Positions 39,800 through 55,494 of a DNA stretch of 64,000 nucleotides are shown in pieces. The notes under the pieces are model-generated. The model was given only the letters and a program-made list of their open reading frames with translations, made no database searches and had not been told where the DNA came from. Numbering within the stretch: position 1 is the first letter of the stretch; every line of letters starts with the position of its first letter. The translations under genes were made by a program, and so were the position numbers. The stretch is taken from positions 1,612,001-1,676,000 of the forward strand of contig NZ_OW659496.1 of assembly GCF_940143175.1 (NCBI RefSeq). Direction: 5' to 3'. Source of the stretch: Erysipelothrix amsterdamensis. GTDB taxonomy: Bacteria; Bacillota_I; Bacilli_A; Erysipelotrichales; Erysipelotrichaceae.

Positions 39800-42700
39800 C
39801 TATTTACGGCGCTTTTTAGAACCTTTTAATACAAACAGACTGCCAAGTCCTATTACGAGATAAGGCGTCTTCAACGCGGCTATACCCGTGTTTGGTAAGG
39901 TTGGAGTTGGCTTATCAGATTCTTTTGGGGTTTCCCTTGGATTATCTTTTGGTGTTTCTTTTGGTGTTTCTTTTGGATCTTCTTCATATGGTTTATTCGG
40001 CTTATCTTCTGGAGGTATAACGCCGGTACGAACTGCTACTTTTAGCGGTTCAATGGCTGGATGACCATTAATTGCGACCGCAAATGAATTCCACGCTGTT
40101 AAGTTTGGTTGATTCATTAGTTCTTGTTTAACCACATCCGGATAGGTCATTTCAGATTGGAATGCGAACTCAAAATCTTGAAGTTCCGAAAGTTCTTTTT
40201 GATCTTTCAATTCAATTTTGAAACTTTTAATCGTCTGCCATTCCATCACATCCGAAGCCGTGATCCAATTTGGATCAGTAGTATCTTTATCCTCTATTGT
40301 GTCAAAGCCTTCAGTTGTGAGGACGCGATTCAGATCTCCACGACTTGGATTGTTAGACGTACTATAAAATACATCAAACAGTGTTTCATCAACCCCTATC
40401 GGACCAGTTAGACTTACATCAAATTCACTATTACGTTGTGTGAAGTCTGTAATGCCACGATCACCAATATTAGGTAGAATATCCATCAATACAAATTCTT
40501 GTATCGCTTTTCCCGTACGATTTGAGAGTTGTAATTTATAATCAATCTTATCGTCTAACTCGATAAATGCTTGCATATCATAGAGTGCATCGTTTTCATT
40601 CTTTACCCATTTCTTAATTTTAAGTTGATAGTCTGAAATCATCTGATAATGATTTTGACTTTGAAGCATTTTTTTAGATTCAAAAGTACTTTGTGTTGTA
40701 TATCCATCATAATCAATTAAAAGGGTATCTTGGATTGTTGGATTTGAAACGGAAAGTGTTTCAAATGTATCATTAGCTTCAAGTAAGGTAAATATTTTAA
40801 GATTAAGGTCTTGATATGTCCCCGAGATATCCACATCAAAAACTTGGCTTGTGGATTCATAAGGTGCAAGTTGTGCTAGGTCCCACACGATATGATAGAC
40901 ATCATGATTTCCACGACGCTGATCAAGTCGTTCGATCGATTTAATATTACCTTGTGGGCTAAGATCTTTAAATTGAACACTTCTGGGTACATAAATAATC
41001 GAATGCACATTATCTTTAACTGCACCAACTGAAGAGGGTTCATTCACAATTTCAACTTTTAGTTTATTTGAACCTTTGTATATTTGACCTTTATATTGAT
41101 CAATAAGTTCAATGGAATTGGTTACAGTTGGATGGTATGCTTCTTGATTTTTAGTTACATTGGCCCAACGTGGTGCAGCAAGAAAGTGAAATCCTTCAAA
41201 CCAGGCATTTACACGACCATCTGGGAAAGTAATGGTATAATCATTTTCTGCATTTTCCTTAAAATCATAGAGTTCACGAACGACATCATTACTGATTCCA
41301 TAACGAAACGCTGTATCAATATCCATCTCATTTTTAAGCTCTGTAATGTTGTCTTTCGAATCCTGCCGCCATGTGTCCTTAATCGTAAAGGTATAGGTAG
41401 GCATGCGTGAAAGTCCATTATGTTCTTGAGGTAAAGGTTCATCAATCATCATTCCAGGAACTGTTGTTTGGAAATCATATTGTACTTTAGAGATTTGAGT
41501 TGTTTCGGATAAATTCTTTTGTTTTAATATTTCTTCACGTGAAATGATTTGATCATGTTCTAAATCTTTAAATGTTGCGATAATTTGATTGTTATCATCA
41601 TAAACATGAGCATGGAGAATGGGTTGTTCATGAAGAGGTGTTGCATCCCCATAATCTGTAGTTGGACGATAATCAAAGCGTCCTGGGGCTTTAAACGACT
41701 CAAGACGTAAATGCTTATTAATGTAGTAGTTCCACTTATATTCCACATAACGATCGTCTGCACCATGTTCTAATGCAGTCATTTGATGTGCATAGGTTAA
41801 TGTTGCCCAAGGATAGACGGTTGGACGTTTATTTAGTGCTTCAAAATCAGTAGAATGGTTGCCGAACGGATCAATAGGACTAAAATGTCCTGGAACGTAC
41901 CAGTTACCGTCAACTTCTGGTGTTTCACTCTCAGAAGGATAGAGCGTCGTTCCCGCATAACCTTGATCTTCTAGCACAACACCATCTACATTAATAAATT
42001 TAAGACGTGATGTAACTCCAACTCCAGAAACAGGGTCATCTAAAGATCCTGGTTTTGCTTGATAGTTCACTTTAAATTCTTGATGGAATAGGGTCGAATC
42101 AAATTGATCTTGTTGATCGTAACTTGGAGCATCAAAATACCATGTAAGTGTACGGGCATCGTAGTCAACGAAATCAGGATTCGGGCCCGAAATCATACCC
42201 TTATAATCCAAGGATTCGTGATACGTTTCAGAAATCGAAATCTGTGTTCCTTCTTTAATATATAGTTGGCCTTGAGATTGACGATCAATTTGCGCTTTAG
42301 TAACCCAGACACTTTCCATTCCAGGACTTAAGCCGAGGGATCCTTGATGTTTAGAATTTTTTAAACCATCATACGCCTTTGATATTTTTAATGGGCTGCT
42401 AGCTTGGACTTTCGTATTTAAGTTAAGCGTTGGGTTCGATCGCTGATCTGTAGATACTTTGATATCAAAATAAAGATTTTCCGTTGTTTTCGTAATACCA
42501 TTAGGTACTGTGAAAACGAGAGGAAGCTCTAGATACGTTCCAGATTCAAATACATCACGTGTAATTAGAAGCCCCTGTTTATCACGTGTAACGTTATATG
42601 GTTCACCCAATATATTTTTTATTGAGGTTATGTCTATTTGTACAAATTGAGGCATCAATACTTCTACCTTTAAGTTGGTAAACGTTGTATGGGCGCCGGT

Positions 42701-42868
42701 TGCTTTGAGTTTTAATTCAATACTATTCTTTGCCCCAGTATTGAATGAATCATAAGTCATCTGTGCATAACTTTCTAAATTAAATGCTTCATAACTTGCA
42801 TTTAACGGAATTATAGATAGAATAAATAAAAAACTAGACAATGCAATCATCAATTTCTTTTTCATCAT
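39800..42868 (-). CDS. LPNTG wall-anchored surface protein
   Basis: A 1,022-residue secreted protein: signal peptide (MMKKKLMIALSSFLFILSIIPLNAS), a long adhesin region, a proline/charge-rich wall-spanning linker built of KETPKETPKDNPRETPKE-type repeats, LPNTGIAAL, a hydrophobic span and the tail KGSKKRRK. Residues about 800-960 share a domain with the IS-interrupted adhesin: LPNIGDRGIT matches LPNLGDSTIT, FYSTSNNPSRGDL matches SYSTSENPERFDA, and AWNSFAVAING matches AYNSIAYRG. Two adjacent ATGs (42868, 42865) follow AAAGGAG; the choice is open. A Mga-like regulator is encoded directly upstream and a palindromic site lies between them. The ligand is unknown. Confidence 0.87.
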   Translation of the reverse strand: MMKKKLMIALSSFLFILSIIPLNASYEAFNLESYAQMTYDSFNTGAKNSIELKLKATGAHTTFTNLKVEVLMPQFVQIDITSIKNILGEPYNVTRDKQGLLITRDVFESGTYLELPLVFTVPNGITKTTENLYFDIKVSTDQRSNPTLNLNTKVQASSPLKISKAYDGLKNSKHQGSLGLSPGMESVWVTKAQIDRQSQGQLYIKEGTQISISETYHESLDYKGMISGPNPDFVDYDARTLTWYFDAPSYDQQDQFDSTLFHQEFKVNYQAKPGSLDDPVSGVGVTSRLKFINVDGVVLEDQGYAGTTLYPSESETPEVDGNWYVPGHFSPIDPFGNHSTDFEALNKRPTVYPWATLTYAHQMTALEHGADDRYVEYKWNYYINKHLRLESFKAPGRFDYRPTTDYGDATPLHEQPILHAHVYDDNNQIIATFKDLEHDQIISREEILKQKNLSETTQISKVQYDFQTTVPGMMIDEPLPQEHNGLSRMPTYTFTIKDTWRQDSKDNITELKNEMDIDTAFRYGISNDVVRELYDFKENAENDYTITFPDGRVNAWFEGFHFLAAPRWANVTKNQEAYHPTVTNSIELIDQYKGQIYKGSNKLKVEIVNEPSSVGAVKDNVHSIIYVPRSVQFKDLSPQGNIKSIERLDQRRGNHDVYHIVWDLAQLAPYESTSQVFDVDISGTYQDLNLKIFTLLEANDTFETLSVSNPTIQDTLLIDYDGYTTQSTFESKKMLQSQNHYQMISDYQLKIKKWVKNENDALYDMQAFIELDDKIDYKLQLSNRTGKAIQEFVLMDILPNIGDRGITDFTQRNSEFDVSLTGPIGVDETLFDVFYSTSNNPSRGDLNRVLTTEGFDTIEDKDTTDPNWITASDVMEWQTIKSFKIELKDQKELSELQDFEFAFQSEMTYPDVVKQELMNQPNLTAWNSFAVAINGHPAIEPLKVAVRTGVIPPEDKPNKPYEEDPKETPKETPKDNPRETPKESDKPTPTLPNTGIAALKTPYLVIGLGSLFVLKGSKKRRK

Positions 42869-42887
42869 AACACTCCTTTGTTGTATC

Positions 42888-42893
42888 ATTATA
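42888..42893 (-). promoter_or_regulatory. Candidate -10 box of the LPNTG surface protein
   Basis: A perfect TATAAT on the minus strand, 20 bp before the start codon. No match to TTGACA is found at the right distance, so the promoter may depend on an activator. Confidence 0.45.
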
Positions 42894-42960
42894 ACGGAAC
42901 AGTGGACGTGTCTGACATTCACGATTTACAGTGGTTTTGTAGATCTTGGGTGTCGGCAAT

Positions 42961-42976
42961 TGTGATGCAAATCACA
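42961..42976. promoter_or_regulatory. CRP/ArcR-type palindrome TGTGATGCAAATCACA
   Basis: A perfect 16-bp palindrome fitting TGTGA-N6-TCACA, the site recognised by CRP and by Gram-positive Crp/Fnr regulators such as ArcR. It begins one base after the Mga-like gene's stop codon and is centred about 100 bp upstream of the LPNTG protein start. No T tract follows it, so it is unlikely to be a terminator. Confidence 0.6.
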
Positions 42977-44371
42977 TTAAAAAAACAATTTTTCAAGAAT
43001 CCCTAAGTATTGTTTTTGTGTCGGGTAATCATCAATGAGGATTGCATCAGTCACAGTAGGAATATTGCCAATACATAGGTCATAGTCCAGCGAACTTAAC
43101 TCAAAATAACTCATACAGTCAATTATTATTTGCTTCGGGTCCAGTTTAAATCGCGTCATAATCTCATTACGAATGTAAACGGCATGTTGATATCCCAAAT
43201 CTGAATAGATTAAAACATGTTGAGTTCGTGCTTCATAACTTAATATTTCCGGACAATTCATAATTGTCCAATACAAAAAATCATCGATATATAATTGAGG
43301 GTCAAGAGGCATTAGGTCGTTTGTTATCATGAGTGATTGATACACATCGGCACGTAATTGGGGATGATCCGTATTAAATGCATTCATAAAATCCGATATC
43401 CGATCAATAAATAAAGATGTTTTAAAAGGATAGAGGGTATAATTATTTAATAGCGTTCGATGAATTAAGCTCATGAATGCTTGCGTATCCGAGCTTAATT
43501 CATAATCATATGTATGCATTAATTTCGAAATAAAAGCATCCGTGAACCGTTTGGTAGCTAAAGTGTCCAAGATTTGTGTGTGATAATACATGACTTCATT
43601 CAAACTTTGCTTACTACGTGTAATATCATAATTTCGATAACCCCGAAAAACACCTGAGAAGTCCATCGTATTAGCTTGATACTCTGGAATCATCGATAGA
43701 TTGCTATGAAAACCTTGCTGTTCTCTTAGGTCCGATATAGCAAATAAAATAACACTGAAGACAAGAGTCAAGCTATCATGATAAATCCCTTTTTGATCGA
43801 AAGCCTTGCGAATTAATGCCTTCGCAACTTCCGTGTTAATTTGTAAGATATCGTCTAAATTTTCTGTACCGTAAAGTTCTAAAACCAAACACGTTACAAA
43901 TTTACGTACATAATGTTCTTGATCTGAAACGATACTTACAGGCCTACTTCCATTACGTTGAAACTGTATGGCACTTGACGCAAATTCTTGATTCATGATT
44001 CGTAAAGTACGATAGAACGTCGATTCACTGATGTAGAACTGAGTCATGCGTTCTTCATTAGGAGTCATCGGATTCTTTACAATATCAATAAAAAGAGAAA
44101 TCGCCAGCGATCGCATTAAAAAAACACGCAATATCCGTTCATTCATCTTTTGATTGTATTCTCTAACAAAATAACGACCATTATCTTTTTCTATCGTGAG
44201 CAAAGGTTCCCATTCTTGTGCAATTTGGTCAAGATACGTGTAAATCGTTTTTTCAGAACATCTACAGTGTTTGGATAAGTCCACAACTGAAGCGTGTGGC
44301 TGAATATCACTGTTGAGGTAAGTAATGAGTTGATAATGATTGCGGTCTATAGTATTCAAAAGTTTTAACAT
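42977..44371 (-). CDS. Mga-like virulence-type transcriptional regulator
   Basis: A 464-residue regulator of the Mga/AtxA type. The N-terminus has two helix-turn-helix segments (about 25-50, ASVVDLSKHCRCSEKTIYTYLDQIA; about 110-135, MTQFYISESTFYRTLRIMNQEF). The middle resembles PTS-regulated domains, and the C-terminal about 85 residues (HVLIYSDLGYQHAVYIRNEI) look like the EIIB-like end of Mga proteins. In streptococci Mga activates adjacent surface-protein genes and responds to sugar supply through the PTS. Here the next gene, 108 bp downstream, encodes an LPNTG protein, a likely target by context. ATG follows GGAGAAG; an extended -10 promoter lies just upstream. Confidence 0.83.
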   Translation of the reverse strand: MLKLLNTIDRNHYQLITYLNSDIQPHASVVDLSKHCRCSEKTIYTYLDQIAQEWEPLLTIEKDNGRYFVREYNQKMNERILRVFLMRSLAISLFIDIVKNPMTPNEERMTQFYISESTFYRTLRIMNQEFASSAIQFQRNGSRPVSIVSDQEHYVRKFVTCLVLELYGTENLDDILQINTEVAKALIRKAFDQKGIYHDSLTLVFSVILFAISDLREQQGFHSNLSMIPEYQANTMDFSGVFRGYRNYDITRSKQSLNEVMYYHTQILDTLATKRFTDAFISKLMHTYDYELSSDTQAFMSLIHRTLLNNYTLYPFKTSLFIDRISDFMNAFNTDHPQLRADVYQSLMITNDLMPLDPQLYIDDFLYWTIMNCPEILSYEARTQHVLIYSDLGYQHAVYIRNEIMTRFKLDPKQIIIDCMSYFELSSLDYDLCIGNIPTVTDAILIDDYPTQKQYLGILEKLFF

Positions 44372-44408
44372 ATTGCTTCTCCATTCTTAAAGCGATTTAA
44401 GTTCTTAA

Positions 44409-44417
44409 ATTATAGCA
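44409..44417 (-). promoter_or_regulatory. Extended -10 promoter of the Mga-like gene
   Basis: On the minus strand TGCTATAAT is an exact TGnTATAAT extended -10 element, 38 bp before the start codon. The -35 is weak, as is common for such promoters. Confidence 0.55.
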
Positions 44418-44452
44418 TTCTAGTCAAAGAATTAAATTCATGATATTAAAAA

Positions 44453-44472
44453 AAACAACCCTAGGGTTGTTT
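44453..44472 (-). terminator. Terminator of the exporter operon
   Basis: A perfect palindrome with arms AAACAACCCT / AGGGTTGTTT followed by eight T on the minus strand. Confidence 0.85.
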
Positions 44473-44528
44473 ACACATCTATCTATTAAAAATTATATTG
44501 CAAACTATTGTTGATAAATAAACTTTGT

Positions 44529-45251
44529 TTAAGGTGTTCTAAAAAAAATATAAGCATTATTAAGCCCTAATAGATTGTAAATAAGCAACAAAAATATAAG
44601 ATGAAAAACTACAAAATAGAGAAAATTTTTCCATCTTCCTCTAAGACTAAAATGCTCTCGAAGTTTTATGAAAAACATCTTTGGATGGAGTAAGTCCCAT
44701 GAATTAAACCGGACTTCACGTCCAAGATAGATTCCGATAACCACTCCCAGAATTATCAGCACCGCAGAGAGTTGGATTAGGACTTGATCGCGCGTTTGAA
44801 TAATAATTGGATCAATGATAACCAAATAGCCCAATTGCACAATCATTATATTAAGCATCGTATTTAGAATACCTGATAACGCAAATGATGTTACAGAAAT
44901 AATATCGTACCAGATTGGCACTTCATACTCGTCCATGTCCCTATGTGTCAAATTCAACTCCGTGAGCAAGTAAGTCGCATTTGGTAGTAATGCAATCCAA
45001 ATGATCGAGCCAAATACAAAAGTAATATTTGATAAAAATAATATTATCCGCATCTGAGTGATCGCGAAAACATAACGCATTCCCAATGTAAAACTAATGG
45101 TAATCAAGAGAACTACAAATGGTATAAGTGATAATTTTAAATTACGAATCATAGGTTTAAAGAGCGTTACACGGTAGATTTTTGGGCGTATAATTATTGT
45201 AAAATAGGCGAATACATTAAAGAGCAAAGTACTTACTAATAAGGATTTCAT
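44529..45251 (-). CDS. DUF1361 membrane protein
   Basis: A 240-residue polytopic protein with six to seven TM segments. The DUF1361 hallmark is clear: LPNATYLLTELNLTHR followed by VPIWYDIISVTSFALSG. The family's function is unknown. Its gene overlaps the stop of the ABC ATPase gene by four bases (ATGA), so it is translationally coupled to the exporter and ends the operon. A role in the export process, or in protection against the same toxic compound, is an inference. Start ATG after AAAGGA. Confidence 0.82.
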   Translation of the reverse strand: MKSLLVSTLLFNVFAYFTIIIRPKIYRVTLFKPMIRNLKLSLIPFVVLLITISFTLGMRYVFAITQMRIILFLSNITFVFGSIIWIALLPNATYLLTELNLTHRDMDEYEVPIWYDIISVTSFALSGILNTMLNIMIVQLGYLVIIDPIIIQTRDQVLIQLSAVLIILGVVIGIYLGREVRFNSWDLLHPKMFFIKLREHFSLRGRWKNFLYFVVFHLIFLLLIYNLLGLNNAYIFFRTP

Positions 45252-45931
45252 AGAGTTCCTTTCTTACTTGAAATACGTTTGAGGTTCCCATCAATCATCT
45301 CGTAGGTCTCATCACAATCTTTAATCATACGATGATCATGGGTCACCATAATTACCGAAGTATTATATTCTTTAGTGATGTGCTTCAAAAGCTTAATGAC
45401 ATCAAAAGCACGTTCGGTGTCTAAACTTGCGGTTGGTTCATCAGCGAGAATAATGCTTGGCTTTAAGACCAAAGCTAGACCAATTGCGACCCGTTGGCGC
45501 TCACCACCCGAGAGACTTTCTGGGTATTGATCCCGTAGCTTATCAATATCAAGTGATTCTAGAAGAGCTTGAATTTCACTCGCAGAAATAGCTTGATCTG
45601 ATTGTTTAACTTTAAACTCAAAATGTTCATATACAGTGAAAAACGGTATTAAATTGGATGTCTGTAGAATAAATCCAAGTGTATTAAACCGCAGGGCTGA
45701 TCGTTCGTTTTCTGTTAATTGCGCGAGTTGGTGCTCGTCAATCGTCACAGTTCCTTGTGACGGTTTTTGGAGTGCACCCATAATCGTTAAGAGGGTCGAT
45801 TTACCGGAACCACTGGGTCCGACAAGGGCAATAAACGCCCCTCGAGGAACATGTAAAGTTACTGGATGAAGGACCTCAACTTGATTTTTTCCATCGGTAA
45901 ATGTCTTTGTAATAGATTGTAAATAGATCAT
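45248..45931 (-). CDS. ABC transporter ATPase, HrtA/MacB/LolD-like
   Basis: A 227-residue ATPase of the LolD/MacB/HrtA group that powers FtsX-type permeases. Walker A is GPSGSGKST (about 38-46), the signature is LSGGERQRV, Walker B is IILADEPTASLD, and the switch His is in VTHDHR. Start ATG follows GGAGGTG. It lies ten bp downstream of its permease and overlaps the DUF1361 gene. Together with a TetR-family regulator divergent to the operon, the layout is that of the heme-efflux hrtRBA loci known from lactic acid bacteria; the actual substrate is not proven. Confidence 0.9.
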   Translation of the reverse strand: MIYLQSITKTFTDGKNQVEVLHPVTLHVPRGAFIALVGPSGSGKSTLLTIMGALQKPSQGTVTIDEHQLAQLTENERSALRFNTLGFILQTSNLIPFFTVYEHFEFKVKQSDQAISASEIQALLESLDIDKLRDQYPESLSGGERQRVAIGLALVLKPSIILADEPTASLDTERAFDVIKLLKHITKEYNTSVIMVTHDHRMIKDCDETYEMIDGNLKRISSKKGTL

Positions 45932-45941
45932 AAAACACCTC

Positions 45942-46961
45942 CTATAATGACTTCAGTGGATCAATCTTAAGAATAATCCGTGTCGAAAATAAAGATCCTA
46001 ACATCGAAAAACCAAGCATCGCAATCGTTACACCGAGTGAAAGCGGTACATACGTAGCAACTGGAACCATATTTTTTAAAACCATGCAAGTCAGTTCGGA
46101 TGCAATCAAACCAAGACCAAGTCCAAGAGACATTAAGATCAATGTTTGAATTATAATGGAACCCATTATTGTTTTGTTTTTAAATCCTTGGACTTTTAAG
46201 ATACCAAAAATAGGTTTTTTTTGCATCGTCAAAATATACATAAACACTCCAATTATTAGTGCTGAAATTATAGATAACGCCCCTATCATCAAACCAAATG
46301 TTAGAATTTGTGCTTTATACCCTGGTAAATTATCGATAAGTTCGGGTTTAGTCACCACTTCATGTTCATCATCTGGTCTTGTACTTATTATCATATTATA
46401 TGGATCTCCTGATTCCAACTGAGAACCGTCTAAAGTTGTATAAAGAACGGGTCGTGTATTATAATTTGAAGACGGTGTAATCCCACTGATTTGGTAATCG
46501 CCATACTTAGGAATCGATAACCTGTCGCCCACATTCAATTGGTTTGCAACACCAATGTCCTCAGTTATTAAAATCTCTTTACCGCTTTGTGGATAATGAC
46601 CTTCTTTCAAGGTTACAATTTTAGAATAACGGGATGGAGCCGCACCTAATAATATTACATCACTTTGTTCATCACTAAGATCCAGGGTAATACCACGAAT
46701 TCTCAATGCATCTTCAACATCACTATCCATCTTCTCAATTTGCTGATTTGAAATAGAGGAAGCTAGCGCATTTTTATTTGCTTCTTTATTTAATATTACT
46801 GTATCAAATTGCCAATGATCAATTGCAGTTCGATTGATTGACGCCAAACCATATGCAAGGCTCGACAAGAAGAATACAAGATAAGCAATGAATGTCATGA
46901 CAAGAACAATCATTGCGAAACGTCCTTTTTCTTTTTTTATTTCTTTAATCGCTAAATACAT
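45942..46961 (-). CDS. FtsX-type ABC permease, HrtB-like
   Basis: A 339-residue permease with the FtsX/MacB layout: one N-terminal TM (about 17-38), an extracytoplasmic domain of about 190 residues, and three C-terminal TM segments (about 230-330) ending near RIILKIDPLKSL. Length and the N-terminal pattern (LAIKEIKKEKGRFAMIVLVMTFIAYLVFFLSSLAYGLA) resemble HrtB heme exporters. Such pumps take toxic lipophilic compounds from the membrane without full transport through a channel. The ATG follows GGAGG, which overlaps operator 1 at 46970-46985. First gene of the exporter operon. Confidence 0.83.
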   Translation of the reverse strand: MYLAIKEIKKEKGRFAMIVLVMTFIAYLVFFLSSLAYGLASINRTAIDHWQFDTVILNKEANKNALASSISNQQIEKMDSDVEDALRIRGITLDLSDEQSDVILLGAAPSRYSKIVTLKEGHYPQSGKEILITEDIGVANQLNVGDRLSIPKYGDYQISGITPSSNYNTRPVLYTTLDGSQLESGDPYNMIISTRPDDEHEVVTKPELIDNLPGYKAQILTFGLMIGALSIISALIIGVFMYILTMQKKPIFGILKVQGFKNKTIMGSIIIQTLILMSLGLGLGLIASELTCMVLKNMVPVATYVPLSLGVTIAMLGFSMLGSLFSTRIILKIDPLKSL

Positions 46962-46969
46962 GGTGCCTC

Positions 46970-46985
46970 CTTATCAGGTGATAAG
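46970..46985. promoter_or_regulatory. TetR-type operator 1
   Basis: Palindrome CTTATCA-GG-TGATAAG, nine bp before the permease start codon. It overlaps the permease ribosome site and the likely transcription start. Matching site at 47003-47018. Confidence 0.8.
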
Positions 46986-46988
46986 TTA

Positions 46989-47017
46989 ATTCTAACAAAT
47001 CTCTTATCACTTGATAA
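46989..47017 (-). promoter_or_regulatory. Probable exporter promoter between the operators
   Basis: On the minus strand TTATCA (47012-47017, inside operator 2) and TAGAAT (46989-46994) are separated by 17 bp. One operator covers the -35 and the other the start site, a repressor layout. Confidence 0.55.
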
Positions 47018-47018
47018 G
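47003..47018. promoter_or_regulatory. TetR-type operator 2
   Basis: Palindrome CTTATCA-CT-TGATAAG with the same seven-base arms as operator 1 and a centre-to-centre distance of 33 bp, about three helical turns. Confidence 0.8.
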
Positions 47019-47079
47019 GAATTTGCTTAAAGATTGTAATTAAGACTAATTTTTGTTTTAATTATGTAAAGGTGATTAT

Positions 47080-47637
47080 ATGAAATCAATAAGAACACGT
47101 ATCCTTGAAACTGCACATTGGCACTTCATGAAATACGGCTATGATAAGACCTCTACACGTGATATTGCTCGCGAACTTGGAATTACTCAGCCCGCACTCT
47201 ACCACTATTTTAAAAACAAAGAAGCCCTCTATTTTGATGTTTTGCAAGCATTCGCAACAGAAATTGGTAACGATTTAAAAAACATTGTAATCTCGGATTC
47301 GCTTGATTTAAGTGCTCATTTACAAACCATGAGTTTGTTTATTCAGGAAAAGCACCCAATGAATTTTAATATGTTAATTCACGATATGAATGTTCTAATA
47401 TCAAAACCACTACAAACAACATTATATGTTGTATGGCAAGAAAACTACTTTCAACCGTTTTTTAACTTATTCCAATCTTATGCCGATACGCTTCGTGATG
47501 ATCTCAATATAAACCAAATTGTGTTTCAATTTCTAAGAGTTTTATCCATCTATATCATCCCTACGCCTACGAAAAAAGATCAAGAAAACCTTCGAAATAT
47601 GATAGATATTTTTGTTAGGGGTATTTCTTTGAAATAG
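47080..47637 (+). CDS. TetR/AcrR-family regulator
   Basis: A 185-residue TetR-family repressor. The N-terminal helix-turn-helix (residues about 6-55) reads ILETAHWHFMKYGYDKTSTRDIARELGITQPALYHYFKNKEALYFDVL, with the family's typical T-x-x-x-I-A-x-x-x-G core; the rest is an all-helical ligand/dimer domain. It is divergent from the HrtAB-like exporter, and the shared 118-bp gap holds two matching palindromes, so it most likely represses the exporter until an inducer (heme in the related HrtR systems) binds. ATG follows AAAGGTGA. It ends at a bidirectional terminator. Confidence 0.9.
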   Translation: MKSIRTRILETAHWHFMKYGYDKTSTRDIARELGITQPALYHYFKNKEALYFDVLQAFATEIGNDLKNIVISDSLDLSAHLQTMSLFIQEKHPMNFNMLIHDMNVLISKPLQTTLYVVWQENYFQPFFNLFQSYADTLRDDLNINQIVFQFLRVLSIYIIPTPTKKDQENLRNMIDIFVRGISLK

Positions 47638-47654
47638 ATTTTATCATTTGAGAT

Positions 47655-47697
47655 TATAGAAAACCGCCATCCAAATACGTGATGGCGGTTTTCTATA
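47655..47697. terminator. Bidirectional terminator between tetR and the giant adhesin
   Basis: A 17-base perfect stem with arms TATAGAAAACCGCCATC / GATGGCGGTTTTCTATA and a nine-base loop, T-rich on both sides. Confidence 0.92.
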
Positions 47698-47706
47698 TAT
47701 AAATAA

Positions 47707-50700
47707 CTATTTTTTATTTGATTTCTTTCGACGTTTAAAGCTGTAAATTGATAACAGTGATCCAACTGTGATTACGACTGCAGCGTTCATTAGATTTGTA
47801 GACGAAATTCCAGTTGTAGGAAGCACTTCAATACGCTTATTGACGACGCTAAACTCATAATCATCCGGTTTTCCAGCAAAACTACTTGCAACCTCGAAGT
47901 TATATGAATCATCTGCTCCTTCATAACCCCTTGGTGTCGCAGTTTCAGTTAATGAATACCATCCTGGACCAACATTTTCAAAGTTTGCAATTCCCTCTGC
48001 ATTCGTTAGAGCAGAAGTAAGTTCGTTGTTTTGAGTTAAATCAAATTTAACACCTTCTAGAGGCACATTATGATCATCGGTTTTATGGATTATCACTCGA
48101 GTTTGATAGTTATAATGGATTAGCGGCGATAATTCCACAAAAGGAAAATCTCCACTAGAATTGATTTTAGCATCTTTTAATTCACTTATTCTATTAGGTA
48201 ATGTGAAAAAATTCTTATTCTCTAAATTCAGAATATAATTATCTGCCGCTTCGGTTTGAACGATTTTATGTTCACCAGGACCGATACGACCGATTGTCAC
48301 TGAACCCTCCGATGATACTTCATGTGTCATATCATCAACACGATATTGTCCTGAATCTAAAGGTTGTAATGAGCTACCGTCAACAAGGTAAACTTCGATG
48401 TGCCCATAGATTACACGTACCGTTGCGCTGTGATTTATTCCTATGTCATTATGAGCCTCTACTGGGATTAACGCTTCAACATTCTCATCATACACCACAG
48501 CATTAGCTGTCTCTGTAAATGTTAGAGCATGTTTACCTGGTTTTAGATTATTTAAGATTAAGGTTCCATCTTTAGCTATTACAGGCGTGTTTCCTCCGTA
48601 CGTTCCTTCCACTTCATGACGATAAGGACCAGTTTCATCGACAAATGCTATGGAAAAACTACCTTGGTAGTTTACGAAATCATCCAGCGCAATCACGACA
48701 CGATCGTCTGATTTTGATGATTTAAAGGTTGGAACTTCAAACTCATATTCATATGTATTACGTATAGTTTGTCCCGGTGCCTGTGTCTGAACAAGTTTAT
48801 ACTCGTTTGGCTTAATGCCTTTTATTTCAAATCTTTCCTTACCTGTTTCCACAGTGAAATCAGAATATCCAGGAACAGCCTTCCATCCAGAATCTGTCTT
48901 TTCAAAGAGATTGAAATGTCCGGTTGTATAGTTTTCAAGATGGCTAGGATCTGTGTTCTTAAAGATTACATTCGCATAATAATTTTTAACTCCCACATCT
49001 TTTGTTGCATAAGGACCACCGTTTTCAGATGCAATTTCAAATGCGTAATGTTGGGATGATATGGTATGTTGTCCATCCCCTGAAGTTTCCACGAAGTAAT
49101 AGTTCCCAGGAGCCAATGAATCGACATCAATCACACCTTGATCATTAGTTTTTAAACCTTCAATCAATAATTTATCTTCTTTATAGAGATCAAAAACAAC
49201 ACCTTCTAGTACGGAACCATCCTCACCAGACGTTTTCAACAGTGAAACTCTTCCACGATAATTTTCAAATGTATTTAGATTTTTAATCCAATAGCTTACT
49301 GTTTGGTCTTGTTGGTTTATTACAACTTCACTGGATTTAATACTTTTAGGTACCGTTACGGTTTGTTCAATATCAGTATTCAATCCATACCCTGTTGGTG
49401 CTTTGGTTTGATTCACAACATACGTACCCGGTTCAACCTGTTTAAATCTTTGATCAGTATTGGTCGTAACACTTTGACCCGTGGTATTTGTTAGTGTGAA
49501 ATGTCCATCGATTAGTGGTTCTACAGTCGAATCATCCCCGTCTAGGTTTGTATATATCAGTTCTGCTTGAGTACCGTAAATTTCAACTGATTTATGAAGC
49601 TCCTTAGGATCTTCATAGGATGTTGGAATTTCAAACACGGGTTCGGTATCAACATAAATCCATTTTGAACTGAGTTCAACACCATCAATGGTATAAGTTC
49701 CATGACCAAAATCAGAGCGTTGACCATCAGGAACTCGTCCATTAGGACCTTTAATATTTAAATTTTCAATATCTATCTGTGTATTTATTGGTCCATAAGA
49801 TTCTATATCAACCGATCCTAAGTGATTCATGAACACAAACTCGAATGTTGACTCATCGCCTTGCTCTTCTGCAATCTCAAATACTTCGCTCTTTTTATTT
49901 AACGGACGATTTGAAGTGGTCTTTGTCTGTGTTAGTGTGTATTTACCCGGTCCAAGTTGGAGTTTGTGGCCCAACGTTTCATCAGAAATTGTAAACATTT
50001 CTACATTGCTTCCGTCTTTTTCAAGAATAAATTCCGAACCCTCAATTAACTGATTACCAAGTTTATTTAAAATGGTTACTTCCATAGAAATATTATCAAA
50101 TTGAAGCTTCATCGGTGTTGGCTTACCCTCGTAACTTGTAATTAAATCATCCAGTCCATATGCAAAGAACGTCAATGGCTCAGTATTGAGTAAATACTTC
50201 CCGTCAACTGATACTTGTTTCAACTGATACAAGCCAGTCTCTAAATTATAGAATATCGCCTTACCGTTAGAGACTTCATAAACATCATCCGTCTTGTTTC
50301 CAGAATAAATCGTATCATACGGAACCCATGCTTTGTTTTCATCTTGTTTAAATAACTTAAATGCACTGTTTTCTATTGTCTCTGTAGTATTACGTTTTAC
50401 AACGTTTAATTCTGCAGTCGTTAAATAGTTTTGATAAGTTGCATTCTTTGTCGTTGCATCGACGGTTCCATTAGGATTTGACTTGATAGTATGAGAAACG
50501 GACTCCGAATTATGTAAAAATCCGTTCAAGTTTTGTTTTGGTTGTGTAATTTGGTATGCCCCAAAGTCAATCCCTTGATCTCCAACATTGACAGTTCCAA
50601 CTTTAAAAATCCCATCATCATTAGATGTGAACTGCTGTTCTATGTTTGAATCATTGGTCACCTTCATATCAATATTTTTAAAAGGCACTTCCGTATTTAT

Positions 50701-53700
50701 AAGGTTTTCATCTGTCCTGATTGCATTGTTTTTCACCTCAAAAACGGGTGTCGTATTATAAATTGCGAAATTTCGCTTATCAACTTCCGTATCACCTCGT
50801 AAACGATCCAATAATCCCGTTTTTTTCTCAAGATTTATCGTTACCAATTTTTTCGACTGAATTTGACTGCTACCAATAACTTCAGATAGATCCTTTGTTT
50901 TGTCGCGATTCTTACTTACAAACCCTAATGAATTTGGTACAGAGTATCCCTTCGCTGCCGTATACTGTTTGACGACATAGTCACCTTCCTCTAGGTCTTT
51001 AAACTCGATATATCCATTTTTATTGGGACGCCCCATACGATAAATATGGTTGTTTTCAGGAAGTCCCGCCTGGTAGCGATACAATAAAATAATTACTTCT
51101 TGTACATTTTCTCCGGTAATGGGAATTCCTGCTTCCAACTCTTCTACCGAAGTCAATTGATTGTCATTGTAGCGTAAAGATAAACCTAAGTCCATTCGAT
51201 CCTCATCATAGGACTCACTTTGATTGTTAATATTAAAATTAACTTCAGCTTGTACTTTATGATTAATCGTTTCTCCACTATTAGATCGATATGATACATC
51301 TGCATAATTTATAAGTGGAAGTTCTGTGTCTGAAACTACCTGTCCGTAAGTTGCATAAGTAATACGAATTGGATCAGTGATTGTCTTTGAGAATGACATA
51401 ATGAAGCCACTTTCACCCGTAATCCAATCATCCAAGAGATCTTCTTCTCCTTGTAAATTGGTTAACGTATATCCGTATTCATCTTTATTAATGCTACGCC
51501 AAGATCCCGATTGGAAAATTTCCATTTTAAGTCCGCTGAGTTCTGCTTTACCATGACTTAAATTTTCTAATTCACCATCATTATCAACAAAGGCAAACGT
51601 ATGCATTTTTTCTAGTGTGTCTTTAATTGTGATTTCAGACATCTCTTCATAGGTTTCGTTTAACGTTAAAATCCATTTAATCTGTTGACGATAACCTGAT
51701 TGTGGATCATGAATACCTTGTTTCTTAATTCGTGCTACACGATCAAATTTTGCGTTAGCTTCCGCTTCTCCGACATCTCCTTGTAATGGTCCATCGGGAA
51801 TTAAAGCACGATCATAGGCAACCTTATTTGTGAAATTTCCATCCATTCCTACTTCTGATTTATTTTCAGTTATCGTTTGCGCAGGCGCATCATCAGTATC
51901 GATGAATGTAATTAGTTTAAACTGATAAACATACTTAGGGTTCATTTCTTTTGCGATATGGTATGATATCGTATTCGCATCTTCTGTTATTTTCAATTCT
52001 TCACTTCCCACAATTGCCTCTTTTACGATGGGTTTTCCCTCCACATCTTTGGCTTCTGTGATGTGACCTTCTTTATCCACTTCAAAAGCTTTAAATTCGA
52101 GCTTTTCTATTTCTTCTAATTTCAGTTGAGCATTTTGAAGGTTTTCTTGCGTCGATGATACGAAAGATTTATCAATCGTGTCTTGAACATCCATCTTCAC
52201 CCGATCAATTCGTCGGAAGTCGATATCATAGTTGAAATTTATAGTCCACTCAACCCCTAAACGATTGCGACCTGTATTAGCATCTTTAACTACTTTAACA
52301 ACACCTTCCTTTTTAGGAATAGTATTATACTTCGCGACTTCTCCTAAATCTTGTTTAGCAACATGGCCTCCACCTTTCCAAGTAATTTTATTACCTTCAC
52401 CAGGAACCCAAGAAGCGAAAATTAGTTGACCAAGATTGGATACTTTATCTAACGGTTTATCACTATGTAGTTTAGTTTTATACATTATAAAATAAGTGTT
52501 TGCATCGCCTTCACCATTCCCAATTGCTTTATCCGAAACCACAAAGTCTACACGTAAATCTGCGTCTTTCGTTAAGTCATTCTTGGTAATATCCGATTGA
52601 TGTGCTTCATCGCTATCACCATTAATAACAATCCCTTTTAGTTTTTCAACATAGCTAGGATTTGCCTTTGGACGTGACACAATATAATCTTTATCTCTCA
52701 GTGTTTCTTTATCTTGAGAGGCATAACCCATATCATCTACAGCAATCAGTTCAGCAACTTCTCCATAGGTTTTCTGTGAATTTTCGTCATCACCCATCGG
52801 TTCCCCCAATAGTTTTATTACAGCATCATAAATATGAATTGATTCAAGTTCTGAATCATCCATCAGTTTTTGAACTTCATTACGGAATTGATCATACTCA
52901 CGATACGAATTTTTCTCCGGATCTACTTTAAATAGAAGAATTTTGTGACCGTCATCCATGGGTTCAAACTCTAATCCGTCCCCAAATTTATCCATGTAAG
53001 ATAATCCAGGAAGTCCTACACGGTGAGCTGTAGTTGTGTTTATAGATGCACCCCAAATTACTTCTTTCGTACGGTAATCAATCATAATTGGTTTTTTATC
53101 GAGTAAGATTAAGTAGTTCGATGCTTCTCGTGTTTTCAATTCTTCTTCCGTAGGTTTTGGTGCAGGAATTAGCCCTCCATTGGTGAACGAATCAACTTCA
53201 GCATCACCCTTAAACATTAAACTTGGCGAGGTCATAAGTTCGTCACGAATGCTTTTTCCGGATTGATACTCATGTTTAATATCATTTTCAAAAATGATAC
53301 TAAATACGACTGGCTCAGTTACTTTTTTATCTTTTTTTATTCGTATTTGTGCTTCAGTACCTTCCGCATTCCAAGCAAGATCAAAACGACCATCCTTATC
53401 AATTGCTTTATTGTTAACCAAAACGGTGCGCTTAAATTTCATATTTTCATAAGTCGCTGGAATTTCAACATACTCGTCAGCACTATCTGCACTATAAGCT
53501 TTAATTGTCTTGGCATTGATCCTAAAGTCAAAACCATCGTTTTCAATACGTACCAATTCGTTGTTGTTGTATTTTATGTTCCAAATCAAACTAGTTGGCA
53601 TCGCCTCTTCCCGTTTTTCACCAGTAATGAGAATGGATCTTGGATACATTTTTTCATTATCTGCAGTCCGTATGAGTTGATTTTTTTCAAGGGCGGAAGT

Positions 53701-55494
53701 CATTCTACCAAGTTGACGCCCCTCTATTTCAAGTTGAAGATCCACATTTTCGTACGTTTGTTTCACCGTATACTTGACCACAAGATTTTTTTCAACTAAT
53801 GGAATTTTTATATCATCAATCTTAGTCGTTGATGTATTTTCAAAATGAAGTGATTCAGAAGGATGTTCGACGTACGGTTCCAAAGTACCATCATTTTTAA
53901 CAATAAAATAACTTACTTCAACATCGGTTTGTATTGACCAATTTTTAAAACCTGAATCCTTTACAATCTTTGGACTTACAAATGATAAATTCAGAGGATT
54001 CATCGTATGATTTCGACTTGTGTTTAATATTCCATCCCAAGCCAGTTCGAAGCCACTACTAATTTCATTAAACCCTTTATGTTCAAGTTTGTGATCCACA
54101 CCACCTAAAGGTTGAACAGGAAATATCTCTTCGATATGATTATTGGGTGCAATAAAATCTTCAATAACAAGTGGATAATCTTCAAGTTTTTCTAATTCTT
54201 CTTTTTTCATTTGTTTATACGAATAACCTGTGAATTGATACTCATCGGTTGCGAATTCAAAACCTTCTTTAAGTGTTTCTTTAATGGTTTCTAAGCTCGT
54301 CCCTTTTTTGATTTCCGTTGTAATATAATCATTAAGCTTGTACGCAATCAAATCTTGAAAGCGATATTGATCTTCAATTCCAGCTTCTTCATTCGAAATA
54401 AAAAGTTCGTCTACAACGAGTTTAAAAGTACCATCATTTGATAATGGATCAACACGAACAATTTTTGAAGAACTGTAATCTTTCAATTTATCGCTAATAA
54501 CAAATTGCTCTTGTGTTGCTGTGAAAAGCGTCATTTCTTTAGGGAAGTCATATTCATATTGATAAACAGATCGTTTTCCATCTTTCATATAATAGAAATC
54601 ATAGATTGGATTACCTTCGGTAATTTTATTGAGTGATTCCTCGTCTAATATAAGTTTGTAGCTTATTTCTACAAACTCGTTATCATCTGTGAACACGTCA
54701 ACACTAAATTGAGTCGAGTCATCTGAATATTGATCCATTTTAACAGGATTGCTAGCATCAATTAATTTATTTTGATATCTTAGTTTTGCATGAGGTTTTC
54801 CTTTAAGATTCAATTCTATTGATCCTGTTAGGTGTTTGTTTGTTGTCTCAGGTAAACCTGAGTTTTCCCCATTTTCAATTTCTTCAGGAATATTTTCATC
54901 CTGTTCCACATCTACTTTAGGTACAACTTCGGTTTCTGATTGAGATTCAAGTTCTTTGATATTATCGAGGAGATTAGGTAATACAATTCCAATAGCTGGG
55001 AATTCCCTAACATCAACTTCCTGCAATTCCCCAACGATATCTACTTCATAGATTAGTTTAAATGATACCGGGTTCTCTACGACATTTTTAAAATCCAAAC
55101 TAAACCCATCATTGTCAGTTTTTGTTTTAATTTGAGTTAAATCTTGAATTGCTTTAGACTCTAAACTTTTTTCGGTATGAGTCGGGGAATCGAGTTTTGT
55201 CAACGAAACTTGCTTTGGTAATTTAAACAAAAGTGGATTAAAATCCTGTTTGATTTGATACCACATATCGTCACTTATATTAAACGATAACTCTACCCGA
55301 GATTTATATGGTTTAACCAACGATTCTACTGTAACTTTTGACTGTTTGGAGTCAATAACAAGTGGCAAAACTTCGTCATTTGATAACTCTTTTTCAGACA
55401 AATTTGCAGAAATAGATAATTGTGAAACGATTAATACGAGTACTAACGCGACAATGCTTAGGGGTCGCATTTTATGGCTTCTTGAAAATAACAT
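47707..55494 (-). CDS. Giant LPTTG surface protein with Cna-B-type repeats
   Basis: A 2,595-residue wall-anchored protein, the largest gene here. It has a signal peptide (MRPLSIVALVLVLIVSQLSISA), a long N-terminal adhesin part to about residue 1450 with isopeptide-type domains (DTLEKMHTFAF; DVQDTIDKSFVSS), then about ten Cna-B/SpaA-like modules. The better ones have Y-x-x-x-V-x-x-x-K-T and T-P-x-G-Y ends (VIIHKTDDHNVPLEGVKFDL; ETATPRGYEG). The C-terminus is LPTTGISSTN, a hydrophobic span and KRRKKSNKK. ATG follows GAGGAG. It is monocistronic. The repeats are diverged from each other, unlike the near-identical ones in some adhesins. Ligand unknown. Confidence 0.9.
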   Translation of the reverse strand: MLFSRSHKMRPLSIVALVLVLIVSQLSISANLSEKELSNDEVLPLVIDSKQSKVTVESLVKPYKSRVELSFNISDDMWYQIKQDFNPLLFKLPKQVSLTKLDSPTHTEKSLESKAIQDLTQIKTKTDNDGFSLDFKNVVENPVSFKLIYEVDIVGELQEVDVREFPAIGIVLPNLLDNIKELESQSETEVVPKVDVEQDENIPEEIENGENSGLPETTNKHLTGSIELNLKGKPHAKLRYQNKLIDASNPVKMDQYSDDSTQFSVDVFTDDNEFVEISYKLILDEESLNKITEGNPIYDFYYMKDGKRSVYQYEYDFPKEMTLFTATQEQFVISDKLKDYSSSKIVRVDPLSNDGTFKLVVDELFISNEEAGIEDQYRFQDLIAYKLNDYITTEIKKGTSLETIKETLKEGFEFATDEYQFTGYSYKQMKKEELEKLEDYPLVIEDFIAPNNHIEEIFPVQPLGGVDHKLEHKGFNEISSGFELAWDGILNTSRNHTMNPLNLSFVSPKIVKDSGFKNWSIQTDVEVSYFIVKNDGTLEPYVEHPSESLHFENTSTTKIDDIKIPLVEKNLVVKYTVKQTYENVDLQLEIEGRQLGRMTSALEKNQLIRTADNEKMYPRSILITGEKREEAMPTSLIWNIKYNNNELVRIENDGFDFRINAKTIKAYSADSADEYVEIPATYENMKFKRTVLVNNKAIDKDGRFDLAWNAEGTEAQIRIKKDKKVTEPVVFSIIFENDIKHEYQSGKSIRDELMTSPSLMFKGDAEVDSFTNGGLIPAPKPTEEELKTREASNYLILLDKKPIMIDYRTKEVIWGASINTTTAHRVGLPGLSYMDKFGDGLEFEPMDDGHKILLFKVDPEKNSYREYDQFRNEVQKLMDDSELESIHIYDAVIKLLGEPMGDDENSQKTYGEVAELIAVDDMGYASQDKETLRDKDYIVSRPKANPSYVEKLKGIVINGDSDEAHQSDITKNDLTKDADLRVDFVVSDKAIGNGEGDANTYFIMYKTKLHSDKPLDKVSNLGQLIFASWVPGEGNKITWKGGGHVAKQDLGEVAKYNTIPKKEGVVKVVKDANTGRNRLGVEWTINFNYDIDFRRIDRVKMDVQDTIDKSFVSSTQENLQNAQLKLEEIEKLEFKAFEVDKEGHITEAKDVEGKPIVKEAIVGSEELKITEDANTISYHIAKEMNPKYVYQFKLITFIDTDDAPAQTITENKSEVGMDGNFTNKVAYDRALIPDGPLQGDVGEAEANAKFDRVARIKKQGIHDPQSGYRQQIKWILTLNETYEEMSEITIKDTLEKMHTFAFVDNDGELENLSHGKAELSGLKMEIFQSGSWRSINKDEYGYTLTNLQGEEDLLDDWITGESGFIMSFSKTITDPIRITYATYGQVVSDTELPLINYADVSYRSNSGETINHKVQAEVNFNINNQSESYDEDRMDLGLSLRYNDNQLTSVEELEAGIPITGENVQEVIILLYRYQAGLPENNHIYRMGRPNKNGYIEFKDLEEGDYVVKQYTAAKGYSVPNSLGFVSKNRDKTKDLSEVIGSSQIQSKKLVTINLEKKTGLLDRLRGDTEVDKRNFAIYNTTPVFEVKNNAIRTDENLINTEVPFKNIDMKVTNDSNIEQQFTSNDDGIFKVGTVNVGDQGIDFGAYQITQPKQNLNGFLHNSESVSHTIKSNPNGTVDATTKNATYQNYLTTAELNVVKRNTTETIENSAFKLFKQDENKAWVPYDTIYSGNKTDDVYEVSNGKAIFYNLETGLYQLKQVSVDGKYLLNTEPLTFFAYGLDDLITSYEGKPTPMKLQFDNISMEVTILNKLGNQLIEGSEFILEKDGSNVEMFTISDETLGHKLQLGPGKYTLTQTKTTSNRPLNKKSEVFEIAEEQGDESTFEFVFMNHLGSVDIESYGPINTQIDIENLNIKGPNGRVPDGQRSDFGHGTYTIDGVELSSKWIYVDTEPVFEIPTSYEDPKELHKSVEIYGTQAELIYTNLDGDDSTVEPLIDGHFTLTNTTGQSVTTNTDQRFKQVEPGTYVVNQTKAPTGYGLNTDIEQTVTVPKSIKSSEVVINQQDQTVSYWIKNLNTFENYRGRVSLLKTSGEDGSVLEGVVFDLYKEDKLLIEGLKTNDQGVIDVDSLAPGNYYFVETSGDGQHTISSQHYAFEIASENGGPYATKDVGVKNYYANVIFKNTDPSHLENYTTGHFNLFEKTDSGWKAVPGYSDFTVETGKERFEIKGIKPNEYKLVQTQAPGQTIRNTYEYEFEVPTFKSSKSDDRVVIALDDFVNYQGSFSIAFVDETGPYRHEVEGTYGGNTPVIAKDGTLILNNLKPGKHALTFTETANAVVYDENVEALIPVEAHNDIGINHSATVRVIYGHIEVYLVDGSSLQPLDSGQYRVDDMTHEVSSEGSVTIGRIGPGEHKIVQTEAADNYILNLENKNFFTLPNRISELKDAKINSSGDFPFVELSPLIHYNYQTRVIIHKTDDHNVPLEGVKFDLTQNNELTSALTNAEGIANFENVGPGWYSLTETATPRGYEGADDSYNFEVASSFAGKPDDYEFSVVNKRIEVLPTTGISSTNLMNAAVVITVGSLLSIYSFKRRKKSNKK

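Follow-up and report, generated by a model that had tools for sequence, protein, structure and literature searches.

The question raised by this locus is what two matching palindromes do between a TetR-family gene and an ABC exporter in Erysipelothrix amsterdamensis. It was addressed in a window of 64,000 nucleotides, by which we mean the whole stretch of DNA analysed, located at 1612001-1676000 of a single 1.9-Mb contig (G000:C1). The preliminary description had reported two palindromes with identical seven-base arms 33 bp apart and had read them as operators of the adjacent TetR protein in front of an HrtAB-like exporter. Both palindromes proved to be exact copies of CTTATCA-N2-TGATAAG, with a start-to-start distance of 33 bp and a gap of 17 bp between them, and the flanking genes were as described (Table 1). 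The comparisons below suggested that the two palindromes are, with high likelihood, the operators of an FhtR-like TetR protein in front of an HrtBA-like pump.

Table 1. Features of the TetR–exporter locus (window coordinates).
Feature	Position	Strand	Remarks
Distal operator CTTATCACTTGATAAG	47003..47018		FhtR-type core 47004-47017; covers the exporter -35
Proximal operator CTTATCAGGTGATAAG	46970..46985		Core 46971-46984; spans the predicted transcription start and overlaps the ribosome site by 3 nt
Predicted exporter promoter	46989..47017	-	-35 TTATCA (47012-47017), 17-nt spacer, TG-extended -10 TAGAAT (46989-46994); consensus match only
AAGGAGG ribosome site of the permease gene	46966..46972	-	3-nt overlap with the proximal operator
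HrtB-like permease, 339 aa	45942..46961	-	FtsX domain (PF02687)
HrtA-like ABC ATPase, 227 aa	45248..45931	-	PF00005
DUF1361 membrane protein, 240 aa	44529..45251	-	PF07099; 4-bp overlap with the ATPase gene; lineage-specific passenger
FhtR-like TetR repressor, 185 aa	47080..47637	+	TetR_N (PF00440)

The positions of the palindromes were compared with the predicted exporter promoter, a call that is weak alone because the scan found three promoter-like sites against 1.4 expected. The -35 hexamer TTATCA falls within the distal operator, and the predicted transcription start lies under the proximal operator, together with the first three bases of the AAGGAGG ribosome site. Thus, of the placement proposed earlier (one site over the -35, the other over the start and ribosome site of the exporter), the overlaps with the -35, the predicted transcription start and part of the ribosome site stand, but the proximal site stops short of the start codon. 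Reading away from the exporter, the TetR gene starts 62 bp beyond the distal site; no promoter-like site on the + strand, from which this gene could be read, was found in the scan.

Two copies of the 14-nt core TTATCRNNYGATAA are present in the window, where 0.09 would be expected, and none of 100 shuffles reached this number. A genome-wide motif search, the check proposed at the outset together with the caution that the palindrome might be scattered in unrelated places, placed the exact 16-mer at only two positions in the whole 1.9-Mb genome, both of them here (approximately 0.024 expected from the base composition of the window). The shorter core has 11 more copies: its 13 places comprise these two, seven identical copies of CTTATCAAGCGATAAG and four sites inside open reading frames, the last of which were judged not to be regulatory. 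The two CTTATCAAGCGATAAG copies examined (L003 and L004) lie between 16S and 23S rRNA, and identity suggests that the remaining five are also of the rRNA-spacer type. This sequence or its complement, found at G000:C1:82355-82370 and six other places, is perhaps part of a processing stem.

A described counterpart of these sites exists in Enterococcus faecalis, where the TetR-family haem sensor FhtR represses hrtBA through two 14-nt TTATCR-N2-YGATAA palindromes, P1 (TTATCAATCGATAA) and P2 (TTATCGATTGATAA). According to that report, both sites were demonstrated by gel shift and reporter assays; with both replaced, the shift was lost and the promoter became constitutive, and P1 or P2 alone gave full repression without haem (PMC7858072). 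The window cores (TTATCAGGTGATAA and TTATCACTTGATAA) keep the TTATCR and YGATAA arms and differ from P1 and P2 in and beside the centre. A protein search with the window TetR, blind to the DNA motif, returned an E. faecalis record (L085) in which a TetR gene is followed by permease and ATPase genes with the exact P1 and P2 in between; the regulators' homology and the operator match are therefore independent findings. Residue 132 of the TetR protein in this record is a tyrosine, in agreement with the published FhtR.

The two loci share a TetR gene that adjoins HrtB-HrtA and stays outside the exporter operon, a pair of 14-nt P1/P2-type palindromes in the promoter of hrtBA (in the window, at the level of sequence), and an aligned tyrosine, Y123 in the window protein and the haem ligand Y132 in FhtR. 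They differ in that the window TetR gene is divergent, whereas the E. faecalis gene points the same way as the exporter, in the spacing of the sites (33 bp vs. 26 bp) and in the extra DUF1361 gene of the window. The window TetR is 34% identical to FhtR over residues 5-137 (approximately 135 residues) and is closer to uncharacterised enterococcal TetRs, with 36.9% identity to an E. faecium plasmid protein; by pairwise identity, the protein in the compared set that best matches FhtR is a Listeria TetR encoded next to an MMPL gene (41%). The gene of the E. faecium plasmid protein (L086:3998-4567) directly follows a phytoene/squalene synthase gene, with no TTATCR core in the fetched locus.

HrtR-controlled efflux in Lactococcus lactis, the parallel drawn in the preliminary description, likewise consists of a TetR repressor of an HrtBA exporter, with an operator that we take to differ from that of the window. 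The haem ligands of HrtR are given as His72 and His149 (PMC11442138), whereas the window TetR lacks equivalents of both, with histidines only at residues 13, 15, 42, 80, 92 and 101 and none beyond. Moreover, HrtR is reported to autoregulate from within the hrtRBA operon (PMC7858072), whereas the window TetR gene is transcribed away from the exporter, and FhtR is described as without homology to HrtR (PMC7858072). HrtR was accordingly set aside as model or closest parallel on haem ligands, gene order and the FhtR match. The accompanying suggestion of a branch different from HrtR was borne out; since the window operator is that of E. faecalis FhtR, an outline of this branch is already available. 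The matches listed in the TetR sequence and fold searches included no HrtR structure, which excludes nothing. The HssRS-HrtBA system of Staphylococcus aureus and others has the same type of exporter under two-component control, whereas no such pair is present among the open reading frames listed for 42000-53000 of the window.

The conservation of TetR residues was assessed from an alignment of 12 group members (A1, with the G510 and G507 TetRs left out); a further alignment (A2) held the window protein with 51 of 65 candidate TetR open reading frames, the 14 left out being mostly near-duplicates or long frames. Q37-P38 in the DNA-reading (recognition) helix, which the window protein has in common with FhtR, is present in all 12 group members and in 0 of 50 other, more distant TetRs. 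Y123 is also invariant in the group (12/12) and occurs in 5 of the 50 others. The tyrosine is retained in group members beside genes other than HrtBA, namely an MMPL transporter (Listeria), a phytoene/squalene synthase (E. faecium plasmid) and RNA polymerase beta (L. fermentum), and it aligns with Y123 of QacR, which presumably lines the QacR drug pocket; therefore, it is no haem signature by itself. Its alignment with the FhtR ligand favours, but does not prove, haem as the ligand of the window protein.

An AlphaFold model of the window TetR (pLDDT 91.5) placed drug-bound QacR (3br2_E; Z 18.2, rmsd 2.4 over 177 residues) among the best fold matches, and SmcR and HapR were within 1 Z of it and thus tied. 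QacR is therefore the closest solved fold by Z only jointly with these two; it has a tyrosine at the aligned place, whereas its identity to the window TetR is 15%, and its operator and exporter presumably differ from those of the window. A shared fold does not indicate function.

The conservation of the sites was evaluated in relatives, the nearest named one being Erysipelothrix tonsillarum (TetR 77% identical). Twin cores at the same 33-bp spacing were found in two other genomes of the genus, G108 (L005) and G129. Comparison of the three closest genomes, all with the 33-bp spacing, showed no variation at any of the 20 core positions (TTATC plus GATAA, for both sites), whereas 65 of 99 other intergenic positions were invariant (Fisher P 6e-4). 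Conservation of the whole 16-bp sites, scored over the arms, was weaker (24/28 vs. 61/91), and only the 14-nt core was fully kept. In G129 the C and G at the ends of the 16-mer are only partly conserved, another sign that the conserved unit is the 14-nt core. In a wider set of TetR loci, picked by protein similarity and not by motif, at least one core stood beside the exporter in 10 of 11 TetR–exporter loci, and the remaining one (G082) had a one-mismatch form. L086, L089 and L142 are not among these 11; they lack an adjacent exporter, and the core was not found in their fetched loci, so that it was present in 10 of 14 TetR loci in all. Furthermore, when 395 genomes of the class were searched with a 12-row profile for additional group members, the sole gain outside the genus was a weak partial hit in G169 (profile positions 5-89, E 7.6e-19), and its fetched locus contains no motif.

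The exporter was compared with solved and characterised pumps. The permease matched Corynebacterium diphtheriae HrtB (7W78_B) over its full length (residues 1-336, E 3.9e-17), the only significant PDB match, and is 34.6% identical to E. faecalis HrtB. The haem ligand of the C. diphtheriae protein is given as Glu219 in a review (PMC11442138), and this position is a glutamine in the window permease, in E. faecalis HrtB, the function of which was demonstrated (PMC7858072), and in all 12 permeases aligned. The glutamine therefore does not count against haem export, and Glu219 is not a family-wide criterion. All 12 aligned permeases have the motif LPGY-x2-Q in common. HrtBA-like permease/ATPase pairs also occur on small Lactiplantibacillus and Staphylococcus plasmids near toxin-antitoxin genes (L174 and L175), and the TTATCR motif was absent at both of these plasmid pumps. 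In addition, the catalase family PF00199 had no match in the whole E. amsterdamensis genome, with 5 of 14 control genomes positive; therefore, one haem use known in E. faecalis is missing here.

The DUF1361 gene, which may be co-transcribed with the exporter here, had been proposed as a mark of the branch, a proposal that the relatives do not support. PF07099 matched in 22 of 145 genomes of the family, 20 of them over the cut-off. Only this genome and G129, whose protein is 75% identical over 209 residues, have the gene next to the exporter; it is missing in E. tonsillarum, and in G082, G049 and G131 both DUF1361 and the exporter are present but apart. Absent from E. tonsillarum and mostly unlinked elsewhere, DUF1361 was ruled out as part of the branch, and by this distribution it appears to be a loose passenger and no defining part of the system. 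A DUF2177 gene adjoins the TetR-HrtBA set of G082 (L099:3482-3907), and G510, of the same genus, has an extra TTATCAGGTGATAA (L154:2167-2180; G510:C31) approximately 35 bp in front of the gene for a DUF2177 membrane protein, which is a possible second target of the regulator.

The window also holds an AcpB/EbpR/MafR-like regulator gene (42977-44371; 127.5 bits, under the cut-off of 130). Two surface protein genes lie near it, encoding 1040 aa (39800-42922) and 2595 aa (47707-55494), the latter with SpaA prealbumin-like domains and an LPTTG end. This regulator may control the surface-protein genes rather than the exporter. The G129 counterpart of the large surface protein, by the TetR gene (L098:1829-4677), appears broken into several frames.

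From these comparisons, we consider it quite probable that the palindromes are operators through which the divergent FhtR-like TetR protein represses the HrtBA-like pump until haem or a like compound releases it. TetR dimers on the 14-nt cores would sit on the -35 and the transcription start and keep the exporter operon off. Once free haem (or a similar amphipathic compound) had accumulated in the cytoplasm, it would bind the pocket around Y123, the ligand-bound repressor would let go of the operators, and the permease/ATPase pair would be made and would expel the compound from the membrane. The sequences themselves give the sites and their conservation, the operator and recognition-helix residues in common with FhtR, the HrtB homology and the aligned tyrosine; binding and repression by the TetR protein, and haem as ligand and cargo, are what we infer, and the haem step, although the likeliest reading, rests on homology.

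The same operators and repressor could instead answer to an inducer, and serve a cargo, other than haem, with a QacR-like multidrug or envelope-stress sensor and a MacB-type pump. Drug-bound QacR is among the best fold matches of the TetR model, the invariant tyrosine has its QacR counterpart, and group members adjoin an MMPL pump and other genes; the QacR-like fold together with these sister regulators therefore leaves room for a non-haem inducer. On the other hand, the only significant solved relative of the permease is a haem exporter, and these operators have one characterised regulator, which is reported to sense haem via the aligned tyrosine (PMC7858072). We regard this alternative as rather unlikely, though of appreciable weight. 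Two further readings concern the sites themselves. Many divergent TetR genes are autoregulated, and palindromes in a shared intergenic region might mainly serve the TetR gene. However, their location, 62 to 110 bp ahead of the TetR start codon, overlaps the promoter predicted for the exporter, the scan gave the TetR gene no promoter-like site of its own, and FhtR expression is described as constitutive (PMC7858072), which makes such a role highly improbable. Chance or structural repeats, e.g. a transcript stem, would fit the recurrence of the core in the rRNA spacers of this genome, but the shuffles, the conservation of position, spacing and cores in two other genomes, and the match to a proven operator of a homologous regulator argue so strongly against this origin that we give it hardly any credence.

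No paper mentioning both Erysipelothrix and heme efflux was found in the literature collection searched. Control of an HrtBA-like pump by an FhtR-like TetR protein would give a probable haem-detoxification pump of Erysipelothrix a concrete operator and regulator, and would extend FhtR-type control beyond the groups named in the FhtR paper (PMC7858072). More speculatively, and in our view doubtful at present, a TetR subfamily marked by Q37-P38 and the pocket tyrosine may have retained TTATCR-N2-YGATAA as its one operator in Erysipelotrichales, Enterococcus and Listeria, even as the membrane protein under its control was exchanged (HrtBA, MMPL or, in one relative of the same genus, DUF2177). If the operator were subfamily-wide, it could be used as a tag in searches for further genes under the control of such sensors. 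If this subfamily reading were true, haem sensing would be a property of the whole subfamily and would bring to light so far unrecognised haem-handling genes, including DUF1361 and DUF2177.
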